Of a stretch of DNA of 64,000 nt, positions 35,809 through 48,480 are shown piece after piece; positions within the stretch are counted from its first letter, which is position 1, and each line of letters opens with the position of its first letter. This DNA comes from Desulfosporosinus acidiphilus SJ4 (lineage in GTDB: Bacteria; Bacillota; Desulfitobacteriia; Desulfitobacteriales; Desulfitobacteriaceae), in the NCBI RefSeq assembly GCF_000255115.2, contig NC_018068.1, positions 3,691,977-3,755,976 of the forward strand. Direction: 5' to 3'. Under the pieces are notes generated by a model. That model saw nothing but the letters and a program-made list of their open reading frames with translations. It was not told the origin of the DNA and made no database searches. Made by a program: the position numbers and the translations under genes.

Positions 35809-36741
35809 TCAGCGTTCCTCACGCGAATAAGGAATTCCCAAGGCGGCCGGAGTCCCTGAACGCCTGGTTTTTGTTTCTCTCGTCGTAATTACCAAAACTA
35901 TAAACGTAAAAATATAAGGAAGCATCTGCAAAAAATAGGACGGAATCATCACTCCAAGAGCTTGAAGATGTAAGCCCAGTGAAGCGATAACACCAAACAG
36001 CCAGGCTCCAAGCAAAGCACGGACAGGATCCCAGACAGCAAAGATAACCAGGGCTACAGCAATCCAGCCTCGGCCTGCCGACATGTTTTCAACCCAGGAA
36101 GGAGAATAGGCCAGAGATAGATAGGCTCCCCCGGCACCGGCAAACATGCCTCCTATAATCACTGCCGCATAGCGAACCAGAAAAATATTATGTCCCATGG
36201 CATCGACCGCCGACGGATTCTCCCCTGCCGCTCTAAGGAGAAGACCGGCTTTTGTCTTATAAAAGATAAACCAAAGTATAATGACAAGAATTACGCTTAG
36301 GTAAACCAGCAGGTCTTGGTTAAAGAGAATTTTGCCGATGATGGGAACTTGAGAAAGTACCGGTACAGCAACGGCCTTGAAGGTAGATGTCGGTGGAATT
36401 CCGACGAGCGTTCGACCAAGAAAAGCAGATAAGCCCGTGCCAAAAATCGTTAAAGCTAAGCCGCTCGCCACTTGATTGGCCCGAAAAACAATCGTTATCA
36501 CCGCATGAATCAGAGCCATAAGTCCACCCGCAATGATTGCCACTAATAAACCCAGCCATTTATTCTGAGCAAACGTCCCTACATAAAAAGCACTTACTGC
36601 CCCCACGAGCATCATACCTTCAACACCCAGATTCAAAATGCCGGCCCGCTCAGTGATAACCTCACCCAAAGAAGCATACAAAATCGGAGTGCCGGCAACG
36701 ACCCCGGAAGCAAGGATGGCGATTAAATAGTTAAGATCCAT
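35809..36741 (-). CDS. Nucleoside ABC importer permease (NupQ/YufQ type)
   Basis: 310 residues, about eight to ten membrane segments, of the BPD_transp_2 family used for nucleosides and branched-chain amino acids. Landmarks: ERAGILNLGVEGMMLVGA, GLALTIFGTGLSAFLGR and RAAGENPSAVDAMG. The neighbouring BMP-type lipoprotein and double-domain ATPase point to nucleoside uptake. Starts five bases before the end of the other permease gene's gap; last gene of the operon, followed by a hairpin element and a strong terminator. Confidence 0.92.
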   Translation of the reverse strand: MDLNYLIAILASGVVAGTPILYASLGEVITERAGILNLGVEGMMLVGAVSAFYVGTFAQNKWLGLLVAIIAGGLMALIHAVITIVFRANQVASGLALTIFGTGLSAFLGRTLVGIPPTSTFKAVAVPVLSQVPIIGKILFNQDLLVYLSVILVIILWFIFYKTKAGLLLRAAGENPSAVDAMGHNIFLVRYAAVIIGGMFAGAGGAYLSLAYSPSWVENMSAGRGWIAVALVIFAVWDPVRALLGAWLFGVIASLGLHLQALGVMIPSYFLQMLPYIFTFIVLVITTRETKTRRSGTPAALGIPYSREER

Positions 36742-36745
36742 ACCA

Positions 36746-37819
36746 TCATGCCTTCTTTCTTACTAAACGATAATTATTAAACATCTCCCCAGCCAGCACG
36801 AAGAATAGAATCGAACCCTGAAACATAGAAACCATACTGGAAGGGAATCCGGAGGTCTGCAAACTATAACCCCCTACCAGCAATCCGCCCATCAAAAAGG
36901 ATACAAGGAGAATACTAATGGGATTTAGACGCGCCAACAAGGCTATAAGTATGGCCGTATAACCATAACCCGGAGAAATGGTCTGTTGGAGGCGGTGAAG
37001 GACGCCTGAAACCTCAGCCATTCCGGCGATTCCCGATATGGCTCCGCTTAAAAACATAACCATTAAAACGTTTTTAATATAACTCATCCCCGCATAATCG
37101 GCCGCTTTGCGGCTTGAACCACTGACACGTATCTCATATCCCCATTTGGAATATTTAAGAATGAAAAACAGGACAACCGCGATGATAAGCATCAAGAAAA
37201 AAGCAAAACTGATCCGAGTGTTTCCAAAAACAGGAATCGTACCACTTTCCGAAAACTGTTTGGTAAGGGGAAAGTTATTTCCTTTCGGATCCTTCCACGG
37301 ACCATATACAAGATAGGCAATCCAAAGATAAGCAACATAGTTTAGCAAGAGTGAGCTGATGGTTTCATTAACATTCCAAAAGGCTTTCGGTAAAGCCGGA
37401 ATTAAGCTCCATAGTCCTCCGCAAATAAACCCTGCGATCAGCATCAAGGGAAGAAGCACTAGTTTAGGCAGAGACGGAAAAAAGAGAGCGAAATAGGTAG
37501 CACCGAAAGCTCCCATGTAAAATTGGCCTTCCGCTCCGATATTCCATAATTGCATCCGGAAAGCCAGAGAAACCCCCAGGGAGCATAAGGCAAGGGGAAT
37601 CATTTCTACAATAGTTTCACTTAAGCCATAGATAGAACCTACCGAAGATTGGAATATTTCGCTATAAAGCTCCAAGGGGTTTTTCCCGGTGATCAGCACA
37701 AAAAGACCTGCAAAGATTAAACCCAAGATGATGGAAGTTACAGAGATGACAACCTTCTTTCCCCCTGAACTTGTATTTGTTTTTCTAATCTCCCAATTTC
37801 CCATCGTTTTACGCTTCAT
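36746..37819 (-). CDS. Nucleoside ABC importer permease (NupP/YufP type)
   Basis: 357 residues, the longer partner permease. About ten membrane segments; landmarks WNIGAEGQFYMGAFGATYFAL, NVNETISSLLLNYVAYLWI and RVSGSSRKAADYAGM match the family. The N-terminus is a 25-residue basic cytoplasmic stretch. The ATG overlaps the ATPase stop by 11 bases. It forms the transmembrane channel with the gene at 35809. Confidence 0.92.
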   Translation of the reverse strand: MKRKTMGNWEIRKTNTSSGGKKVVISVTSIILGLIFAGLFVLITGKNPLELYSEIFQSSVGSIYGLSETIVEMIPLALCSLGVSLAFRMQLWNIGAEGQFYMGAFGATYFALFFPSLPKLVLLPLMLIAGFICGGLWSLIPALPKAFWNVNETISSLLLNYVAYLWIAYLVYGPWKDPKGNNFPLTKQFSESGTIPVFGNTRISFAFFLMLIIAVVLFFILKYSKWGYEIRVSGSSRKAADYAGMSYIKNVLMVMFLSGAISGIAGMAEVSGVLHRLQQTISPGYGYTAILIALLARLNPISILLVSFLMGGLLVGGYSLQTSGFPSSMVSMFQGSILFFVLAGEMFNNYRLVRKKA

Positions 37820-39329
37820 GAAGATCTACCTTTCTTTTGCCGGCCATCATCAGACCTATTTCTTCACGTGATGTTTCATTCGGCTTAACGACGCCCATGA
37901 TCTCCCCTTCGTGCATTACCATGATGCGATCCGTCATGGAAAGGATATCTTCCAAGTCTTCCGAAATAAGGAGCACGGTCTTACCTTTTTCACTCTCACC
38001 TATCAGCAAACGTCTCACATAATCCGTGGCACCGATGTCAAGACCGCGCATGGGATACACAGCAATAATCAATTTTGGATCAGAATCAATTTCCCGTGCC
38101 AAAAGGAGTTTCTGGATATTTCCGCCCGACATCATTTTGACGGGATTGGTCATGCTCGCTAACCTAACATCGAATTTTTTAATTAACTGTTCGCAATCGT
38201 TTTTAACTTTATCCCAGGAGATAAAAGCACCGGGATACTTGCGATAGCTTTTAAGGGCTACATTTTCATGAGCGTTGAGATCCGTTACCAGACCGGTAGT
38301 CATACGATCCTCCGGTACATAACTGATGCCAAGGTCAATACGCTTTTTGCGGCCTGATTTTGTACAGTCCTTACCGCAGAAAGAGATAGTTCCTTGCTTT
38401 GCAGAACGCAGGCCTGCCACCGTTTCCGCCAGTTCTTTCTGCCCGTTACCGTCAACGCCGGCTATACCGAGGATTTCTCCTTTATATATATCCATTGAAA
38501 TATTTTTCAATTTTAATAAGCCATTGTCCCCTAAGGCTGAAATATTAGCCAACGTCATAAGCTTATCCGTTTTCAAAGACAACGTCTTAGCGGTTGCGGA
38601 AGAAATATCTCTGCCAACCATCATTTTAGCAAGTTCTTTTTCAGTGGTATTTTTCGTTTGAACAGTACCAATAGATCTCCCGTCCCGGAGGACAGTGATA
38701 GAATCCGTATTTTCCATAACCTCGTTCATTTTATGAGAGATAATGACGATAGATTTGCCGCTTTCGGCCATCTTTTGCAGGGTACTATAGAGCGCCTTGG
38801 CTTCCTGTGGTGTCAATACGGCTGTTGGTTCATCGAGAATTAAGAATTTAGCCCCTAAAAGCAATAATTTAATAATTTCTACCCTTTGCTGTTCACCAAC
38901 GGAAAGCTGCCAAATTTTCGCCTTGGGGTCAATGGAAAGTCCAAAAGCCTCCGATTGCTCAATAATTTGCTTTTGGATCTCTTTAAGATTGTATATTTGT
39001 TTCAAACCTTTAATACTCAGCATGATATTTTCAGCCACTGTAAAGGGCTGGACAAGCTTAAAATGCTGATGGACCATACCGATGCCCCTATTGACAGCAT
39101 CTTTAGGCGAAGAAAATTCAACATTCTTTCCTTCAATATATATTTCGCCCCCATCGGGCCGGTACAACCCCGTCAGTACGCTCATCAGCGTACTTTTCCC
39201 CGCTCCATTCTCACCAAGCAGAGCGTGAATTTCACCTTGGTTAACAACTAGAGAAACTTGATCATTTGCCAAGATACCCGGGAACTCTTTCGTAATATTG
39301 CGCATTTCCACCATGGGTGTATTCCCCAT
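37809..39329 (-). CDS. Nucleoside ABC importer ATPase with two nucleotide-binding domains (NupO/YufO type)
   Basis: About 506 residues with two ATPase modules, typical of sugar/nucleoside importers. Module 1: Walker A GENGAGKST, signature LSVGEQQRVEI, Walker B LILDEPTAVL, H-loop IISHK. Module 2: GVDGNGQKE in place of a normal Walker A, signature MSGGNIQKLLLAREI and LIIAVYPMRGLDIGA, the usual degenerate second site of this family. I start at MGNTPMVEM, preceded by AAAGGGTGA. Lies between the bmp lipoprotein and permease genes. Confidence 0.94.
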   Translation of the reverse strand: MGNTPMVEMRNITKEFPGILANDQVSLVVNQGEIHALLGENGAGKSTLMSVLTGLYRPDGGEIYIEGKNVEFSSPKDAVNRGIGMVHQHFKLVQPFTVAENIMLSIKGLKQIYNLKEIQKQIIEQSEAFGLSIDPKAKIWQLSVGEQQRVEIIKLLLLGAKFLILDEPTAVLTPQEAKALYSTLQKMAESGKSIVIISHKMNEVMENTDSITVLRDGRSIGTVQTKNTTEKELAKMMVGRDISSATAKTLSLKTDKLMTLANISALGDNGLLKLKNISMDIYKGEILGIAGVDGNGQKELAETVAGLRSAKQGTISFCGKDCTKSGRKKRIDLGISYVPEDRMTTGLVTDLNAHENVALKSYRKYPGAFISWDKVKNDCEQLIKKFDVRLASMTNPVKMMSGGNIQKLLLAREIDSDPKLIIAVYPMRGLDIGATDYVRRLLIGESEKGKTVLLISEDLEDILSMTDRIMVMHEGEIMGVVKPNETSREEIGLMMAGKRKVDLHEA

Positions 39330-39352
39330 CGCTCTCACCCTTTCAACATTAT

Positions 39353-39383
39353 CGCAAACCGGCGAGAGACTCGCCGGTTTGCG
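39353..39383 (-). promoter_or_regulatory. 14-bp perfect stem between the binding protein and ATPase genes
   Basis: CGCAAACCGGCGAG and CTCGCCGGTTTGCG are exact inverse complements around AGA. No T-run follows on the minus strand, so it is not an intrinsic terminator. A stable intercistronic hairpin here would protect the upstream mRNA from 3' exonucleases and give more binding protein than ATPase, as seen in other ABC importer operons. Confidence 0.7.
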
Positions 39384-39411
39384 GATAACATCATCCTTCT
39401 GTTATAACCGA

Positions 39412-40548
39412 TTACGATTTGGGAATCGATCCCACAACGCCTTTGACAAACCAGTTGATGGAAAGGAGCATCTCATCTGTGGCTTTATCACCGTCTTTAA
39501 TCTTTAAGTTGCCGTTTTGATCGTAAACCGGCCCTGTGAAGGGAACAAATTTACCATCGATAATGTCTTGTCGTTTAGCAATGACAGTTGCTTGGAAATC
39601 TTTATCGACTTTGGAACTAAAAGGCGTTATATCGATAATACCACCGTCTTTAATTCCGCCAAAGTATTGAGTTGACTTCCAGGTTTTGTTCATAACATCC
39701 TTAACAACTTGAACAAAGTATGGGCCCCAATTGGAAACGTCACCTACGAGGATAGAATTAGGGGCAAATTTGGACATATCGGAATCGTGGCCGATTGCCA
39801 GCACACCTCTGTCCTGGGCAGTTTGAGCGAAGGATGGGGAGTCAACGTGCATAGCCAGAACGTCAGCACCTGCATCAATCAAACTATTAGCTGCTGTTTT
39901 CTCTGTTGCCGGATCATTCCAGGAATTTGTCCAGACTACTTTGACTTGAACTTTTGGGTTTACTGATTGAGCACCGAGAGTGAAAGCATCGATATTACGG
40001 ATGACTTCAGGGGTACCGAACGGTGCCAGGAAGCCGAGAATATTGCTCTTTGTGTATTTTCCTGCTACCATACCGGTTAAATAGCGGGCTTGATAGTCAC
40101 GATTGAAATATGTTCCTAAATTGTCTGTTGTTTTGTAACCACTGCAATGTTCAAAGACAACATTGGGGAATTTTTTGGATACATCTTTCATGTAATCCAT
40201 GTAACCATAGCTGGTACCAAAAATAATATTGTAACCCTTCTGAGCAAGATCTGTGAACGTACGTTCACAGTCAGCAGTTTCCGGAATGTTTTCAACATAG
40301 GTTGTCTCGACGTTTTTCATGTGGGATTCCAGGTATTTCCTGCCTTGGTCCTGTGCATAAGTATAACCAAAGTCACCCACTGGTCCAACGTAAACAAAGG
40401 CAACTTTAATTTTCTGAGTTGCGGACTGACTGCTTCCTTGGTCCGAAGTTGCTGCCGGCTTACTGCTTTGGGAGCAGCCGCTGAGTAACAGGGTCAATAT
40501 CATGACAAAAACTAGCGTAGATATACTGATTTTTTTAGTTAATTTCAT
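39412..40548 (-). CDS. BMP-family nucleoside-binding lipoprotein
   Basis: 378 residues: signal with lipobox LLLSGC (Cys near residue 25), then a periplasmic-binding-protein fold of the PnrA/Bmp/NupN family. Landmarks are VAFVYVGPVGDFGYTYAQDQGR, FEHCSGYKTTDNLGTYFNRDYQARYLTGMVAGKYTK (long family core near residues 135-170) and GHDSDMSKFAPNSILVGDVSNWG. It is the substrate receptor of the importer and the first gene of the operon. SD GTGGAGGAAAGAGA precedes the ATG. Confidence 0.95.
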   Translation of the reverse strand: MKLTKKISISTLVFVMILTLLLSGCSQSSKPAATSDQGSSQSATQKIKVAFVYVGPVGDFGYTYAQDQGRKYLESHMKNVETTYVENIPETADCERTFTDLAQKGYNIIFGTSYGYMDYMKDVSKKFPNVVFEHCSGYKTTDNLGTYFNRDYQARYLTGMVAGKYTKSNILGFLAPFGTPEVIRNIDAFTLGAQSVNPKVQVKVVWTNSWNDPATEKTAANSLIDAGADVLAMHVDSPSFAQTAQDRGVLAIGHDSDMSKFAPNSILVGDVSNWGPYFVQVVKDVMNKTWKSTQYFGGIKDGGIIDITPFSSKVDKDFQATVIAKRQDIIDGKFVPFTGPVYDQNGNLKIKDGDKATDEMLLSINWFVKGVVGSIPKS

Positions 40549-41308
40549 TCTCTTTCCTCCACTTATCTTTCTTTAATTTTTCACTTAAAATGATGGTTTT
40601 TCATCCCCTCTTCCCGATTTGATAATTAAATTCACAAAAACAAAGCTGCATTGCCATGTGTTTGCTTCTTATTTTTGCGAATAATTCAGTAGACTTCGCT
40701 AAATGGTTTATTTCTATATTTCTATTCTAAAAATGCCGAGGCAATGCAACCAAAATTGAGTTAGTATGCAAATTTGTCAACTAAATTGTGAAGTTTTTAA
40801 TATAGAAGAATAATTATAAGTTATATAGCAAATACCAAGACAATTATGTAAATAAAACTCAGCCAGCGCTTGAAAACTGTCTTCGCACGAATAGGCTCTT
40901 CTTTCAGTATACAACCAAAGGTTGTACTTTCGGATATAAAAAATAACTCAACTTCATAAGTTTTCCAAATAAACAAAAAAGAGAAGTTATATATCCCGAT
41001 GATGACCGAGAATTATAGCTTCTTTGCTACCTAATCTACTACATTGAAGATTAGCTGACAAGTAAATTATAATAGGTTTTTGTCGATAGTTCAAGTAGTC
41101 TAGGCCCTGATAGCTTCCTAAATCTCTTTGAACGCTTTGCCCTTTTTGAAGCAATATTCTTATAATTATATAATATTATTGTCCGAAAAGCTCCTACCTG
41201 GAGTACCCGGTTTAATATGTATGTATTTAGGAATCAATAGGGAATACTTAAAATTAATTTGACCTCGAAAAACTCTTTGCATTTAAAACTTTTGATAAAG
41301 GGGAAGTT
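40549..41308. other. 760-base divergent gap upstream of the nucleoside importer and mch
   Basis: AT-rich, no gene on either strand. I looked for a purine riboswitch in the importer leader (the conserved TATAA and ATATGG core) and found none. It contains dispersed repeat copy A (40876-40940). A weak TTGACC (about 41262) precedes mch. The function of most of this gap is unknown. Confidence 0.6.
40876..40940 (+). repeat. Dispersed structured repeat, copy A
   Basis: Starts ACTGTCTTCGCACGAAT, then CTCTTCTTTCAGTAT, a hairpin ACAACC AAA GGTTGT and ACTTTCGGATATA. Copy B (45211-45273, opposite strand) shares the first 17 bases exactly and the same layout; copy C (48520-48570) is more diverged. Confidence 0.75.
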
Positions 41309-42283
41309 ATGCGATTACCTTCAAATCAGCTGCCAGAACTTAGCCCAAATTGCCAAGCCTTTCCTTACGTTGAGCAACTCGCAAACCGCAGTCGGCAACT
41401 TAGGACCTGTGTGGCTAAACGACACGGCGTAACTGTTATCGACTGTGGTGTCCAAGTCCCAGGAGGTTGGGAGGCAGGAATATTATTCGCTTCGGCATGC
41501 TTAGGCGGACTGGCTAGGGTAGATTTGCATTGGTCTGATCGTTTGAATTTCCATTGGCCATCGGTCGAAGTTAGAACTGATCAGCCTCTTAGGGCTTGTT
41601 TGGCATCTCAATATGCAGGATGGCCCATAAAAAATGGCAATAAAGTTGTTATGGGTTCCGGACCCATACGTTCTATTCTTCATGAAGGTGACATTTTTGA
41701 AAAGTTAGGGTACCATGATGAATCCGAAACTGCAATTATTTGCTTGGAAAGCGAAACTCTACCGACCGATGATGCAATAAGTCAAATTATCGAAGGTTGC
41801 CGCTGCGTTCCCACAAGCTTATATATTCTAGTTGCTCCAACGGCTTCCTTAGTAGGTTCTGTTCAAGTGAGCGCCAGAGCCCTGGAAACGGGACTGTCAA
41901 AATTGATGCTGCTAGGTTATGATTTAGGAAAGATTAGTTCGGGATTGAGCACTTGTCCCGTTCCCCCTGTAACGGGAGACAATCTTCAAGCCCTGGCGAG
42001 GACAAATGCAGCTATTCTTTATGGCTCGACGGTTTTATTCAACCTTCAGGATGAAGATAAGAACTTAAAATCCATCGCTCAACAAGTCCCTTCAAATCTA
42101 TCTCAGGATGATGATCAAGCTTTTGAAGAAGTATTAAAATGTCAGGGAAATTTTTATAATCTGGATCCCTTTATTTTCAGTCCGGCGGAAGTCTGGCTTA
42201 ACAATATGACCAGCGGTAATTCCTTTCACGCCGGGAGAATTAATATTGAACTCTTGCGAAAATCCTTCTGTCTAGGAGCGTAA
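41309..42283 (+). CDS. mch: Methenyltetrahydromethanopterin cyclohydrolase homologue
   Basis: The 324 residues match the Mch family end to end: DCGVQVPGGWEAGILFASACLGGLARV, TDQPLRACLASQYAGW, VVMGSGPIRS, VAPTASLVGSVQVSARALETGL, a GYDLGKISSG loop, ARTNAAILYGSTV, and the C-terminal DPFIFSPAEVWLNNMTSGNSFHAGRIN (core near residues 285-310). Mch interconverts methenyl- and formyl-tetrahydromethanopterin in methanogens and some methylotrophs; a true C1 role here is not established since no other H4MPT gene is in view. ATG follows AAAGGGGAAGTT. Pairs with the next gene at 32 bases. Confidence 0.85.
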   Translation: MRLPSNQLPELSPNCQAFPYVEQLANRSRQLRTCVAKRHGVTVIDCGVQVPGGWEAGILFASACLGGLARVDLHWSDRLNFHWPSVEVRTDQPLRACLASQYAGWPIKNGNKVVMGSGPIRSILHEGDIFEKLGYHDESETAIICLESETLPTDDAISQIIEGCRCVPTSLYILVAPTASLVGSVQVSARALETGLSKLMLLGYDLGKISSGLSTCPVPPVTGDNLQALARTNAAILYGSTVLFNLQDEDKNLKSIAQQVPSNLSQDDDQAFEEVLKCQGNFYNLDPFIFSPAEVWLNNMTSGNSFHAGRINIELLRKSFCLGA

Positions 42284-42315
42284 ACTACCTAAATGTTACT
42301 GTGGGAGAGAACATA

Positions 42316-43254
42316 ATGTTTGATGTCTGTTTATTAGGAACAGGCGGCATGATGCCGATTCCCGGCAGATGGCTGTCATCTCTTTTAATAAAATGTAACG
42401 GGAAAATGATCCTTGTAGATTGTGGCGAAGGAACTCAAATCCCGTTAAGAATGGCTGCCTGGGGTTTTAAAGCCATTGAAGCCATTCTATTGACTCATTA
42501 TCATGCAGACCATATAGCCGGTTTGCCCGGCTTACTTTTGACAATTGCTAATTCGGGAAAAGTAGAAGTTTTAACCTTGATAGGACCGCCTGGTCTAAAA
42601 CAAGTGGTTGATGGGTTAACGGTTATTTCACCCCAGCTGCCTTATGAATTAGAATTAATTGAGTTGTCGGATATTAATGGCGACAGTACATCTCTGCATA
42701 ATATCAATATCAACAGCTTACCGGCAGATCATTCCTTGCCCTGCCTAGCCTATTCTTTTGAACTGCCTAGGAACAGGAGATTTAATGCCGGACGCGCCAA
42801 GGGACTCAATATTCCTATTCAATATTGGAAGGACCTTCAGCGAGGGATTTCGGTAACTTTGGAAAATAAGACAATTCGCCCGGACATGGTTCTGGGGCCT
42901 TTAAGAAAAGGAATCAAAGTTTGCTATTGTACCGATACGCGACCAACAGAAGATTTAGAAGAATTTATCTCTGGAGCTGATCTATTTATCTGTGAAGGAA
43001 TGTACGGCAAAAATGACGAATTAGAAAAGGCAAGACAAAATAAACACATGACGTTTTCTGAAGCTGCCTTGCTGGCTAAAAGAGGAAACGTGAACGAACT
43101 CTGGCTTACTCACTATAGCCCCTCTTTAAAGGACCCGGAAGTCCATATCGAGGGGGTACGAGCAATTTTTCAAAAGACCATTGCCGGCAAGGATCTGCAA
43201 AGCAAAACTATAAAGTTTAATGACACTGACACCGAAGCCGATTTCGGGAAGTGA
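42316..43254 (+). CDS. RNase Z-like metallo-beta-lactamase-fold hydrolase
   Basis: About 312 residues. The zinc motif LTHYHADHIAGLPGLLL is the classic RNase Z sequence; further ligands are in LPADHSLP, YCTDTRP and WLTHYSPS, and NAGRAKGLNIPIQYWKDLQRG resembles the family's substrate region. It may be a tRNA 3' processing enzyme or a related phosphodiesterase. ATG 42316 is chosen, GGGAG about nine bases upstream; the GTG at 42301 lies inside that site. It follows mch by 32 bases on the same strand, so the two are probably co-expressed. Confidence 0.85.
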   Translation: MFDVCLLGTGGMMPIPGRWLSSLLIKCNGKMILVDCGEGTQIPLRMAAWGFKAIEAILLTHYHADHIAGLPGLLLTIANSGKVEVLTLIGPPGLKQVVDGLTVISPQLPYELELIELSDINGDSTSLHNININSLPADHSLPCLAYSFELPRNRRFNAGRAKGLNIPIQYWKDLQRGISVTLENKTIRPDMVLGPLRKGIKVCYCTDTRPTEDLEEFISGADLFICEGMYGKNDELEKARQNKHMTFSEAALLAKRGNVNELWLTHYSPSLKDPEVHIEGVRAIFQKTIAGKDLQSKTIKFNDTDTEADFGK

Positions 43255-43266
43255 ACTCGTTCAGCT
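43251..43266. repeat. 16-base repeat, copy 2
   Basis: GTGAACTCGTTCAGCT, identical to 35708-35723. Here it begins in the last codons and stop of the RNase Z-like gene. Confidence 0.6.
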
Positions 43267-43445
43267 CAAGCTAATAAAAGAAACCCTTACTGATAGAACT
43301 TACTTATAGAAGAAGGATCTTAGCTGGGGATAACGTAGAAAATCTGATAAGGCGAAGAATTATACGTAAATCATGAAGAAATTAAAAGATCCAGTTTGCT
43401 AAAATTGCAACAATACTTTTTGCATACTTTTTGCTAAGTTTCCCC

Positions 43446-43476
43446 TTGACTTAAAGTGTACTCTAAGGTTTATCCT
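43446..43476 (+). promoter_or_regulatory. MerR-type promoter/operator for the DUF362-merR operon
   Basis: -35 TTGACT (43446-43451) and -10 TATCCT (43471-43476) are 19 bases apart, the over-long spacer typical of MerR-activated promoters. The spacer TAAAGTGTACTCTAAGGTT with its flanks carries the inverted repeat CTTAAAG TGTA CTCTAAG (one mismatch), the expected dimer site. The regulator is encoded by the second gene of the same operon, so autoregulation is likely. Confidence 0.85.
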
Positions 43477-43601
43477 ATTAAGGTAATTATGCTCCTATCT
43501 CTATGAACTCTTTTACAGCTCATTGATAAGAACGGAGTTTCATTAAACTAAACCAGTGTTTTTATAAAGCAACATACTTTAGATTTTGGAGGTATCATGA
43601 T

Positions 43602-44708
43602 ATGGAAAAATCAAAAGTCTATTTTACCAACATGCACACAACAATGAACGAAAATTTGCCGCAGAAATTAAGCCGCCTAGTTAAAACAGCAGGGATTCAA
43701 GGGATTGACTTTGATAAAAAGTTCGTCGCCATCAAAATTCATTTTGGCGAGCCTGGCAATCTGGCGTATTTACGCCCAAATTACGCTAAAACTATCGCAG
43801 ATATCGTTAAAGACCTGGGTGGCAAGCCATTTCTAACAGATTGTAATACATTATACGTAGGAGGCAGAAAAAACGCACTTGACCATTTAGAGTCCGCTTA
43901 TGTCAATGGATATTCCCCTTTTTCCACCGGCTGTCACATCCTCATCGGCGATGGATTAAAAGGGACGGACGAAGCTTTAGTTCCTGTTGAGGGCGGCGAG
44001 TACGTTAAAGAAGCAAAAATCGGTCAGGCTGTTATGGATGCCGATATCATAATTTCTTTAAACCATTTCAAAGGGCATGAGCTTACCGGTTTTGGCGGAG
44101 CGATAAAGAATATCGGCATGGGCTGCGGGTCCCGTGCAGGAAAGATGGAAATGCACAGCAGCGGCAAGCCCCAAGTTTCCCAAGAACAGTGTGTCGGCTG
44201 CGGCATGTGTACTAAAATTTGTGCCCATAGCGCCATCACCATAACAGACCGTAAAGCTTCGATCAATCACGATAAATGCGTTGGCTGCGGCCGTTGTATT
44301 GGAGTTTGCCCAACTGGGGCTATTGTCCCTGCCTGGGATGAATCCAATGACATCTTAAATAAAAAAATGGCCGAATACACATGGGCTGTGCTGCATGAAC
44401 GACCTCACTTTCACATTAGTTTGGTTATTGATGTATCTCCGTTCTGCGACTGTCACGCCGAAAACGACATTCCCATTGTCCCGAATGTTGGCATGTTTGC
44501 TTCCTTTGATCCCATTGCCTTGGACGTCGCTTGCGCCGATGCGGTAAACGGTCAGCCGGTCATGGCAGGAAGCCTGCTGGAAAAAAGCCTAAAAAATCAT
44601 AAGGATCATTTTACCGATGTCAATCCGACCACCGATTGGAAAGTAGGAATAGATCATGCAGTAAAAATGGGTTTAGGTAGTAAGGACTATGAATTGATCA
44701 CAATCTAA
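43602..44708 (+). CDS. DUF362 domain protein with two 4Fe-4S ferredoxin clusters
   Basis: 368 residues. The DUF362 part (about 1-185 and 260-350; IKIHFGEPGNLAYLRP, NHFKGHELTGFGGAIKNIGMG) encloses two ferredoxin motifs, CVGCGMCTKICAHSAI and CVGCGRCIGVCPTGAI, each with three close Cys and a distal one; a further C-D-C-H in DVSPFCDCHAEND could bind another metal. Probably a soluble cytoplasmic Fe-S protein; the substrate is unknown. ATG after TTTTGGAGGTATC. Controlled by the MerR promoter and followed by merR at 19 bases. Confidence 0.88.
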   Translation: MEKSKVYFTNMHTTMNENLPQKLSRLVKTAGIQGIDFDKKFVAIKIHFGEPGNLAYLRPNYAKTIADIVKDLGGKPFLTDCNTLYVGGRKNALDHLESAYVNGYSPFSTGCHILIGDGLKGTDEALVPVEGGEYVKEAKIGQAVMDADIIISLNHFKGHELTGFGGAIKNIGMGCGSRAGKMEMHSSGKPQVSQEQCVGCGMCTKICAHSAITITDRKASINHDKCVGCGRCIGVCPTGAIVPAWDESNDILNKKMAEYTWAVLHERPHFHISLVIDVSPFCDCHAENDIPIVPNVGMFASFDPIALDVACADAVNGQPVMAGSLLEKSLKNHKDHFTDVNPTTDWKVGIDHAVKMGLGSKDYELITI

Positions 44709-44727
44709 CGTTGGAGGAGACTTCCGA

Positions 44728-45102
44728 ATGGGATATACCATCAGCCAGGTAGCTGAAAAATTTGATCTTACTGCCCACACCATTCGCTATTATGATAAAG
44801 AAGGACTGCTGCCCTTTGTCGATCGCAGCAAAGCAGGAAACAGAGAATTCTCGGACAGTGACCTTGATTGGTTAAAATTAATTTGTTGTTTAAAAAATAC
44901 CGGAATGCCCATTAAGCAAATTAAACAATATATTGAATGGTGTCTCATAGGGGATGAAACTTTAGAAATCAGACGACAAATGTTTCTTGCCCACCGCCAA
45001 GAAGTCTTAAAAAAGATGGATGATTTAAGGGAGAACCTTAAAACAATCGATCAAAAACTTAAGTGTTACGATACTAGCTGTAATATTTCCTCAGAGAAAT
45101 AG
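44728..45102 (+). CDS. MerR-family regulator (AdhR-like)
   Basis: 124 residues: N-terminal winged helix-turn-helix YTISQVAEKFDLTAHTIRYYDKEGLLP and the dimerisation helix LICCLKNTGMPIKQIKQYIEWC, then a coiled coil to the C-terminus. The layout resembles AdhR/YraB regulators that respond to aldehydes through Cys; Cys residues occur near positions 53-54, 72, 112 and 117. It follows DUF362 by 19 bases with GGAGGAG upstream and likely binds the 43446-43476 operator. Confidence 0.92.
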   Translation: MGYTISQVAEKFDLTAHTIRYYDKEGLLPFVDRSKAGNREFSDSDLDWLKLICCLKNTGMPIKQIKQYIEWCLIGDETLEIRRQMFLAHRQEVLKKMDDLRENLKTIDQKLKCYDTSCNISSEK

Positions 45103-47110: not shown

Positions 47111-47481
47111 CTGATTCACCTCTCTTAGTATGAATTAGCTTATATACCCTGCTGAAGTAACTATTAGGACTGCAAATAATCGTCATGTGAACCCTGCCGG
47201 CACTTCTTTTTCTATTATATTTTCTCTCAAAGCGGAACAAATAGCAACAGCCCTTACAAAAACGGTTACAAAGAGGAGAGCTATTGTGAACATTGTCTTA
47301 AGAAACTGTGAACATTGATTTAATCGAAAGGATTCCGGGCATTCGCAGAGAATATTACACTCAGATTCTTTACCTTATTCTTTTGGGGGTGACCAGCTAA
47401 ATAACTTTCAAAGAAATAGAAAACTAAAGAAAGCAATGTTTCAATACTTCTGTTATCTAAAGCTAGAGGGGAGTGCCAAAT
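47111..47481. other. Divergent gap between lipoprotein and G1 peptidase genes
   Basis: No gene is convincing here; a 64-codon minus-strand frame at 47320-47514 overlaps the peptidase start and is rejected. It contains an 11-base direct repeat (47285-47317), a related TGTGAAC at 47186, and presumably two divergent promoters that I could not place. Confidence 0.55.
47285..47317. repeat. Tandem 11-base direct repeat, 22-bp period
   Basis: TGTGAACATTG at 47285-47295 and again at 47307-47317, starts exactly 22 bases apart (two helical turns). TGTGAAC occurs once more at about 47186. The spacing suggests cooperative binding of a regulator to one DNA face. Confidence 0.55.
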
Positions 47482-48480
47482 ATGAAAATTATAACCATTA
47501 AAAAGAAGACTCAAATGATTGCTCTAGCTGTATTTGTTGTATTGGGAACCTGCTCTCTCGTCAATGGGACACAAGTTCTCCCAGCTAATAAGCAGCTAGC
47601 TGCCAATCTCGTTATGTCCAGGAATTTTAGGCATAAACATTTACCCATGCCGGAATACCAACAACCGCAAACGCAAAGTTCCAATGCCGTTGCCAACCTT
47701 CCCGCCAATACACAAGGCTCCAATAATTGGGCAGGATATATTAATACTCCTGATGCCGGTAAAAGCTATACAAGTGTTTCCGGTACCTGGACAGTACCAA
47801 ACATAAGTGCGAGTCAAGATGATGCTGTCGCAGCACAGTGGATCGGTTTAGGCGGGGTTTCCTCGAACGATTTGTTACAAATGGGGACAGTTGAAGAAAT
47901 AGAAAACGGACAACCCGTTGCTAAAATATTTTGGGAACAGTTGCCTTCTACTGCGCAAAATGTAATGACTGTTCCGATTGGCTCAACCATCAATGCAAGC
48001 ATCTCTCCATCGGCAGACTCAAGTTCAACCTGGAATTTGACCTTTACTGTTAACGGCCAATCTCCGGCTCAGACAATTCCCCCAGTAACCCTAGATTCAG
48101 ATTACGCCCAAGGAATCGGAACTTCTGCAGAATGGATTAGTGAGGATCCTTCTAATCAAAATGGTCAATTGTATCCTTTGGCAAATATGGGATCAGTATC
48201 CTACCAAGCGGCGACGGTCAACGGACAGCCTTTTGATTCTATTGGCAATGTACAGCCTTTAGCCCTTGTCTCAAAAACCGGAAATGTATTGATTGCCCCT
48301 TCAGAAATAGGATCCGATGAAAAATCATTCGCAACGAATGTCATAAGTTCGAATACTAATACAGGAACTACCTCAAGATATCGTCAAAGCAGAGGCCCAC
48401 AGTATCCTTCAAGCTGGATACATGTTTCGATTATTCAAGGATCTCAAGGTGACAATTTTACCTGGACTTGGGAATTCTAG
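47482..48480 (+). CDS. Secreted G1-family (eqolisin/glutamic) peptidase
   Basis: About 332 residues: signal peptide (hydrophobic run MIALAVFVVLGTCSLVNG), a propeptide of about 50 residues, then the G1 fold with SNNWAGYINT, SVSGTWTVPN, AAQWIGLGG, DLLQMGTVEE and GTSAEWISED. The catalytic pair by comparison with scytalidoglutamic peptidase is the Gln in LLQMG and the Glu in AEWIS; both present. Such enzymes are acid proteases known first from fungi. ATG 47482 with GAGGGG nine bases upstream; followed by a clear terminator. Confidence 0.85.
   Translation: MKIITIKKKTQMIALAVFVVLGTCSLVNGTQVLPANKQLAANLVMSRNFRHKHLPMPEYQQPQTQSSNAVANLPANTQGSNNWAGYINTPDAGKSYTSVSGTWTVPNISASQDDAVAAQWIGLGGVSSNDLLQMGTVEEIENGQPVAKIFWEQLPSTAQNVMTVPIGSTINASISPSADSSSTWNLTFTVNGQSPAQTIPPVTLDSDYAQGIGTSAEWISEDPSNQNGQLYPLANMGSVSYQAATVNGQPFDSIGNVQPLALVSKTGNVLIAPSEIGSDEKSFATNVISSNTNTGTTSRYRQSRGPQYPSSWIHVSIIQGSQGDNFTWTWEF

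Follow-up and report, generated by a model that had tools for sequence, protein, structure and literature searches.

The 64,000-nucleotide stretch of the Desulfosporosinus acidiphilus SJ4 chromosome analysed here (the window) encodes an Mch-family cyclohydrolase that appears to be a genuine Mch, orphaned from the H4MPT module and perhaps now acting on another carrier, most likely methenyl-tetrahydrofolate (methenyl-H4F). We give this reading a probability of about 0.45. The family itself is known; what is new, as far as the genomes compared here indicate, is an Mch that lacks its usual carrier and is widespread in one genus. Among the matches listed from the open PMC library, taken by their titles and the starts of their abstracts, none reports an orphan Mch in Desulfosporosinus. 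In what follows, genomes are designated by G-numbers, G000 being the host, and loci by L-numbers.

The mch gene lies on the + strand at 41309..42283 and encodes 324 residues. Its start codon is ATG, preceded by GGGGAAG (41300..41306, +), which reads as a ribosome-binding-site-like sequence. The protein scores 332.3 bits against the NCBIfam equivalog TIGR03120 over residues 14-320 (cut-off 228.8), 352.8 bits against PF02289 (E 2.1e-105; cut-off 25 bits) and, in phmmer, 268 bits against the Mch of Methanopyrus kandleri (1qlm). Arg183 and Glu186 (A. fulgidus numbering), the catalytic residues of Mch, are both kept. An earlier note on this DNA had described a full-length Mch homologue with its family motifs, and the two profile cut-offs and the catalytic Arg/Glu bear this out: by profile scores, the window protein is a genuine member of the Mch family. 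The host genome holds a single copy of mch, and its G+C content (44.5%, against 43.0% for the window) gives no sign of a recent foreign origin. From their ORF starts, the other genes of the window are presumably housekeeping genes, their names having been recognised by reading. The same note had associated Mch chiefly with methanogens and some methylotrophic proteobacteria, which is incomplete for this phylum: of 398 sampled genomes from it, the host included, 26 carry PF02289, and MptG accompanies it in 9 of the other 25.

The host does not seem to make the carrier that would go with such an enzyme. We searched its genome, which is 99.99% complete, for FTR (PF01913), for beta-RFAP synthase MptG (TIGR00144), which catalyses the committed step of the carrier, and for the formaldehyde-activating enzyme Fae (PF08714). 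None of the three gave a match in the host genome at E <= 0.001. The FTR and MptG searches work in this family, since other genomes of the genus and G432 give matches: FTR is present in 4/29 genus genomes and MptG over its cut-off in 3/29, and across the 45 family genomes the same MptG search as for the host finds G405, G407, G425 and G432. Weak MptG matches of 20-25 bits (cut-off 113.5) occur in six of the 45, five of the six bearing an orphan mch. Consequently, H4MPT synthesis in the host is very unlikely. The observation that no other H4MPT gene is in the window thus extends, for FTR, MptG and Fae, to the whole genome. It had been proposed that the organism either uses an H4MPT-type C1 carrier or employs the protein in another cyclohydrolase role; these absences contradict the first and leave the second. 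Folate metabolism offers no vacancy for it either. FolD and 5-formyl-THF cyclo-ligase each have a match in 44/45 family genomes, the host among them, so that no pathway gap calls for Mch, and the idea that it replaces either enzyme was dropped.

The window gene is no stray, for the same orphan clade is found intact in 22/29 genus genomes. PF02289 occurs in 25/45 family genomes. We built an Mch tree from 67 sequences, 64 from loci and three PDB chains, after duplicates and pieces under ~270 residues had been dropped from 122 ORF matches. The orphan clade comprises 24 sequences (support 98/86). The first to join it is the orphan of G124, a member of a different genus in the family (97/88), which was kept out of the count of 24, and the next are four cluster-linked (Fwd/FTR) Desulfosporosinus Mch (98/91). 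As the orphan clade is nested inside cluster-linked Mch, the orphan derives from an H4MPT-linked enzyme, and the phylogenetic check of family membership asked for earlier places the window protein among cluster-linked Mch. Its nearest cluster-linked kin are the Bacillota/Desulfosporosinus copies of L035, L100 and L103 (54-57% identical). These sit with Fwd and FTR genes, in L035 also with MptN-like and CitG-like genes, whereas the window copy stands alone. L009 counts as cluster-linked on account of the FTR gene 1.3 kb from it in G329. FTR is missing in 19 of the 22 orphan-bearing genomes and MptG over its cut-off in 20 of them. In G404, G405 and G425 an orphan coexists with a cluster-linked Mch, and thus the orphan is no stand-in for the latter. 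The neighbours of the orphans vary by locus, including agmatine deiminase-like, acetolactate synthase-like, phosphate transporter-like and citrate synthase-like genes (named from N-termini). An agmatine deiminase-like gene, some genes off from mch, is common to several orphan groups; a constant partner gene was rejected, as neighbours change between loci.

Arg183 and Glu186 are present in 24/24 orphans; in the 4gvr chain Gln takes the place of Glu at 186. The window protein also keeps Glu140 and 41/45 near-invariant positions of H4MPT-linked Mch, departing at G223, D227, G258 and I275. In a comparison that left out L021 and L025 as aberrant, it departs at 5/54 otherwise fixed positions, and the other orphans at 1 to 7. 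With fixation set at 85%, three columns separate the orphans from eight near cluster-linked copies. The most striking of the three is column 120, Gly in the orphans and Glu in 8/8 of these copies; it is the G position of an HxG loop that directly follows the SGP motif in 24/24 orphans. At position 190 the orphans have Ser, Phe or Thr in place of the His found in the same eight copies. Compared with the known Mch of methanogens, Archaeoglobus and methylotrophic proteobacteria (1qlm, 4fio, 4gvq), the window protein has in common the full-length match, the catalytic pair and the 41 positions, but it has the HxG loop and has lost His190; moreover, its gene has no adjoining MptN- or CitG-like gene, and FTR, MptG and Fae are all without a match in its genome. 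The setting differs on four annotated plasmids of proteobacteria, where mch is accompanied by genes for beta-RFAP synthase, methylene-H4MPT dehydrogenase, an ATP-grasp protein, a triphosphoribosyl-dephospho-CoA synthase-like protein and Fae; three of these plasmids also have a RimK-like ligase next to it, and a further record carries no annotation. The orphan clade is under purifying selection, with dN/dS values of 0.108-0.211 in six close orphan pairs; two cluster-linked pairs gave 0.088 and 0.179.

We propose that the Desulfosporosinus orphan goes back to an Mch that belonged to an H4MPT module, whose Fwd/FTR/Mch clusters persist in a few species. It would have been retained either once the remaining pathway genes had gone or separately from them; some species have it in duplicate, and its location differs. 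Mch hydrates the N5,N10-methenyl bridge so that the formyl group stays on N5, as established for H4MPT. With H4MPT absent, methenyl-H4F would be the nearest substrate in the cell. Following the regiochemistry of Mch, the orphan would then most likely add water to 5,10-methenyl-tetrahydrofolate, opening its five-membered ring to give an N5-formyl product, and so would link methenyl-H4F and 5-formyl-H4F in both directions beside the ordinary FolD route. The ATP-dependent cyclo-ligase of the host could return 5-formyl-H4F. Any role in storage or buffering is an inference, as are the substrate and the N5-formyl product. Purified Mch enzymes have been reported to be specific for H4MPT, which counts against a folate substrate, as does the gene content, with no tested folate gene missing and an mch that can be lost. 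A comparable case has been described in haloarchaea. These organisms use folate, lack the methanopterin-specific enzymes and keep an Mch, HVO_2573 (PMC8305020). Because those enzymes are absent, the authors assume that it works on tetrahydrofolate and propose it as a methenyl-H4F cyclohydrolase (PMC8305020). The host resembles haloarchaea in keeping an Mch alongside folate and without the H4MPT genes tested; the likeness is one of gene content, and HVO_2573 is archaeal.

Downstream of mch lies rnz (42316..43254, +), for which we take ATG 42316 as the start, giving about 312 residues, because a ribosome-binding-site-like GGGAGAG precedes it at 42303..42309 (+, sequence reading); the ORF is listed from GTG 42301. 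With this start the gap between the two genes is exactly 32 bases (42284-42315), which confirms the spacing and the shared strand given before. No terminator-like site was reported between mch and rnz, and thus the two are probably co-transcribed. Outside the pair are genes for a DUF362 protein with two [4Fe-4S] sites (43602..44708, +; PF04015, 186.9 bits) and a MerR/NmlR-like regulator (44728..45102, +; PF13411, and NF041849 at 95 bits, below the cut-off of 175). On the other side a BMP-type ABC transporter operon runs divergently (35809..40548, -), composed of a PnrA-like binding protein (PF02608, 202.8 bits) and of permeases and an ATPase named by reading; its gene order is the same in G409 and G417. 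A Peptidase A4 gene (PF01828) near the block, at 47473-48480 of the window, is also kept in G417.

The mch-rnz block is missing from one site in G003. Only about 15 bases separate the transporter from the DUF362 gene there, as against the 2.1 kb that carry mch and rnz in G417, and the flanks of the two genomes are 92-93% identical. The DUF362 gene is found in relatives without mch-rnz beside it. To judge by this site, the block came or went as one unit. G409 carries it at the same place although its flanks are only about 78% identical, and for that reason loss in G003 is the simpler account of the absence. G003 has another RNase Z elsewhere. This copy lies on a 10-kb contig (L136, contig 33) with the same transposase-like ORF, recognised by reading, at both ends.

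A second Mch-like clade in Bacillota bears on what else the orphan might do. It contains 20 sequences from 14 genomes (support 100/100 in the Mch tree), with Gln at the Glu140 position in 20/20 and Arg183/Glu186 kept. MptG is missing in 13/14 of these genomes and FTR in 8/14; the one with MptG, G237, has FTR too because it also holds a canonical cluster. This shows that the Mch fold is kept without H4MPT synthesis. The loci (L042-L046, L048-L052) often represent several copies per genome, and several adjoin E1/E2 2-oxoacid dehydrogenase genes or BMP-type ABC transporters. In L044, Mch-like genes are found with E1 and E2 genes, an SDR, a GntR regulator and a lipoate ligase, and sequence clustering shows the E1/E2 arrangement also in L042, L043, L052 and, in part, L046. 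By analogy, the window orphan might open the ring of some compound other than a C1 carrier, in catabolism or salvage, as this clade may do. The clade shows that the fold can leave H4MPT, and the window gene, like some of its members, adjoins a BMP-type transporter. However, the window protein falls in the other clade, with Glu140 and nearly all the near-invariant positions intact, and the transporter persists where the mch-rnz block is absent, orphan neighbours being variable in any case; we consider such a substrate doubtful. A broader reading, to which we give somewhat less than even odds, is that Bacillota have freed Mch from H4MPT on two or more occasions. The Desulfosporosinus orphans with the HxG loop would now act on folate or on some other ring compound, and the Gln140 clade, with its 2-oxoacid dehydrogenase or BMP-transporter neighbours, would consist of catabolic ring-opening hydrolases. 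The window gene would then be a bacterial Mch working without methanopterin.

It could also be argued that the host copy is a drifting relic with little function. An intact orphan is missing in 7/29 genus genomes, among them the close relative G003, which lacks the block; four of the seven (G003, G407, G414 and G416) are 100% complete and the other three 98, 79 and 67%. Of the orphan, G407 retains a stop-containing fragment and G414 a piece of 43 residues. As seven genomes do without it, the orphan mch can be lost and is dispensable. Between G000 and G417 (window 35809-45102 against L108), mch and rnz are 75% identical and six neighbours 85-95%, five of them 89-95%, from which the pair is evidently evolving faster than its surroundings. 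The host copy has Asp227 changed to Ala (TND to TNA), a residue kept by the other 23 orphans, and Gly223 also to Ala, with Gly258 changed as well; in the two sequences closest to it, both Gly223 and Asp227 are intact. With these changes, the window's own copy may be weakening, a point against the folate reading as well. Against a relic stand its open frame, the dN/dS of about 0.1 to 0.2 in the other orphan pairs and the two copies kept in G418 and G424. The window copy against G417 gives 0.095, a rough value since dS is near saturation. A drifting relic of little function in the host strain is, on this evidence, unlikely.

A third possibility is that the orphan still acts on H4MPT, the carrier being either imported from methanogens or their debris, or synthesised by enzymes that have escaped recognition. 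The nearly unchanged active site, with as few as three columns fixed differently, speaks for it. Nonetheless, FTR and Fae, as users or feeders of the product, were not found in the host, nor was MptG by the search that detects it in four family genomes, and the great majority of orphan-bearing genomes share this lack of MptG. We regard continued H4MPT use as quite improbable.

The downstream gene looks like an ordinary tRNA 3'-processing enzyme. It scores 368.1 bits against NF000801 (cut-off 252) and 293.3 bits against TIGR02651, barely over the cut-off of 292.95, and keeps the HYHADH metal motif (HxHxDH). The earlier note had suggested counting canonical rnz genes, and this is the only full-length one in the host (293 bits; next match 47 bits). 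We found no difference between it and known RNase Z. The window has no tRNA gene, and a tRNA gene context for the enzyme was dropped. Full-length RNase Z matches (>= 288 bits) occur in 15/45 family genomes, 13 of them over the cut-off and all in Desulfosporosinus. RNase Z adjoins mch only in G000, G409 and G417, that is, in 3 of the 13 genomes with both genes; in G405, G406, G408 and G410 it is on the same contig, about 56-243 kb from an mch. Within the genus the two genes show no significant association (Fisher p = 0.39, 29 genomes). In these raw genome counts, made irrespective of completeness, G407 enters as Mch-positive even with a cluster-linked copy as its intact one, and the truncated RNase Z of G411 places that genome among the negatives. 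Thus, co-occurrence in other genomes, which had been put forward as a check, did not hold up, and a conserved mch-rnz unit was rejected. In the RNase Z tree the three adjoining copies group together (92/92), most other forks being weak. A functional tie of Mch to RNase Z is unsupported, and the transporter, the DUF362 protein and the regulator all occur without the block. MJ0837 has another fold than the RNase Z-like protein. That enzyme is the one known to open the pterin cyclic phosphate in archaea (PMC8305020). The earlier speculation that the RNase Z-like partner opens this phosphate and cooperates with Mch in pterin metabolism, for which the shared strand, the 32-base spacing and the joint absence from one G003 site could be cited, is thus highly improbable for the sole full-length RNase Z, which scores as the equivalog, keeps its metal motif and is paired with mch in three genomes only.

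The equivalog model labels the window protein an H4MPT enzyme, yet the host is without the carrier genes tested. Taken alone as a metagenome marker of methylotrophy or H4MPT, mch would mislead here. If the orphan is folate-active, it would be a bacterial parallel of the proposed haloarchaeal carrier switch and an enzyme giving N5-formyl, not N10-formyl, folate; if it is not, the Mch fold would have a substrate still to be named. With H4MPT clusters, orphans and species without either in one genus, Desulfosporosinus would be a good system for following an enzyme that outlives its pathway.

Two further observations concern other H4MPT-family genes in Bacillota. FTR-like paralogues of 82-96 bits are encoded in L184 (6507-7433), L186 (6377-7252) and L185 (6733-7617), in clusters that also hold amidohydrolase-, alcohol dehydrogenase- and aldolase-like genes, as named from N-termini; these are perhaps a second H4MPT-family enzyme recruited for catabolism. 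An in-frame TGA stands at codon 112-114 of the FwdB-like gene in five Bacillota Fwd clusters (L033, L035, L100, L101 and L103), of which two belong to G405, a Desulfosporosinus genome. This site corresponds to Cys in three unsplit homologues (L034, L036 and L041), and a hairpin is predicted after the TGA. The gene probably encodes a selenocysteine formylmethanofuran dehydrogenase.
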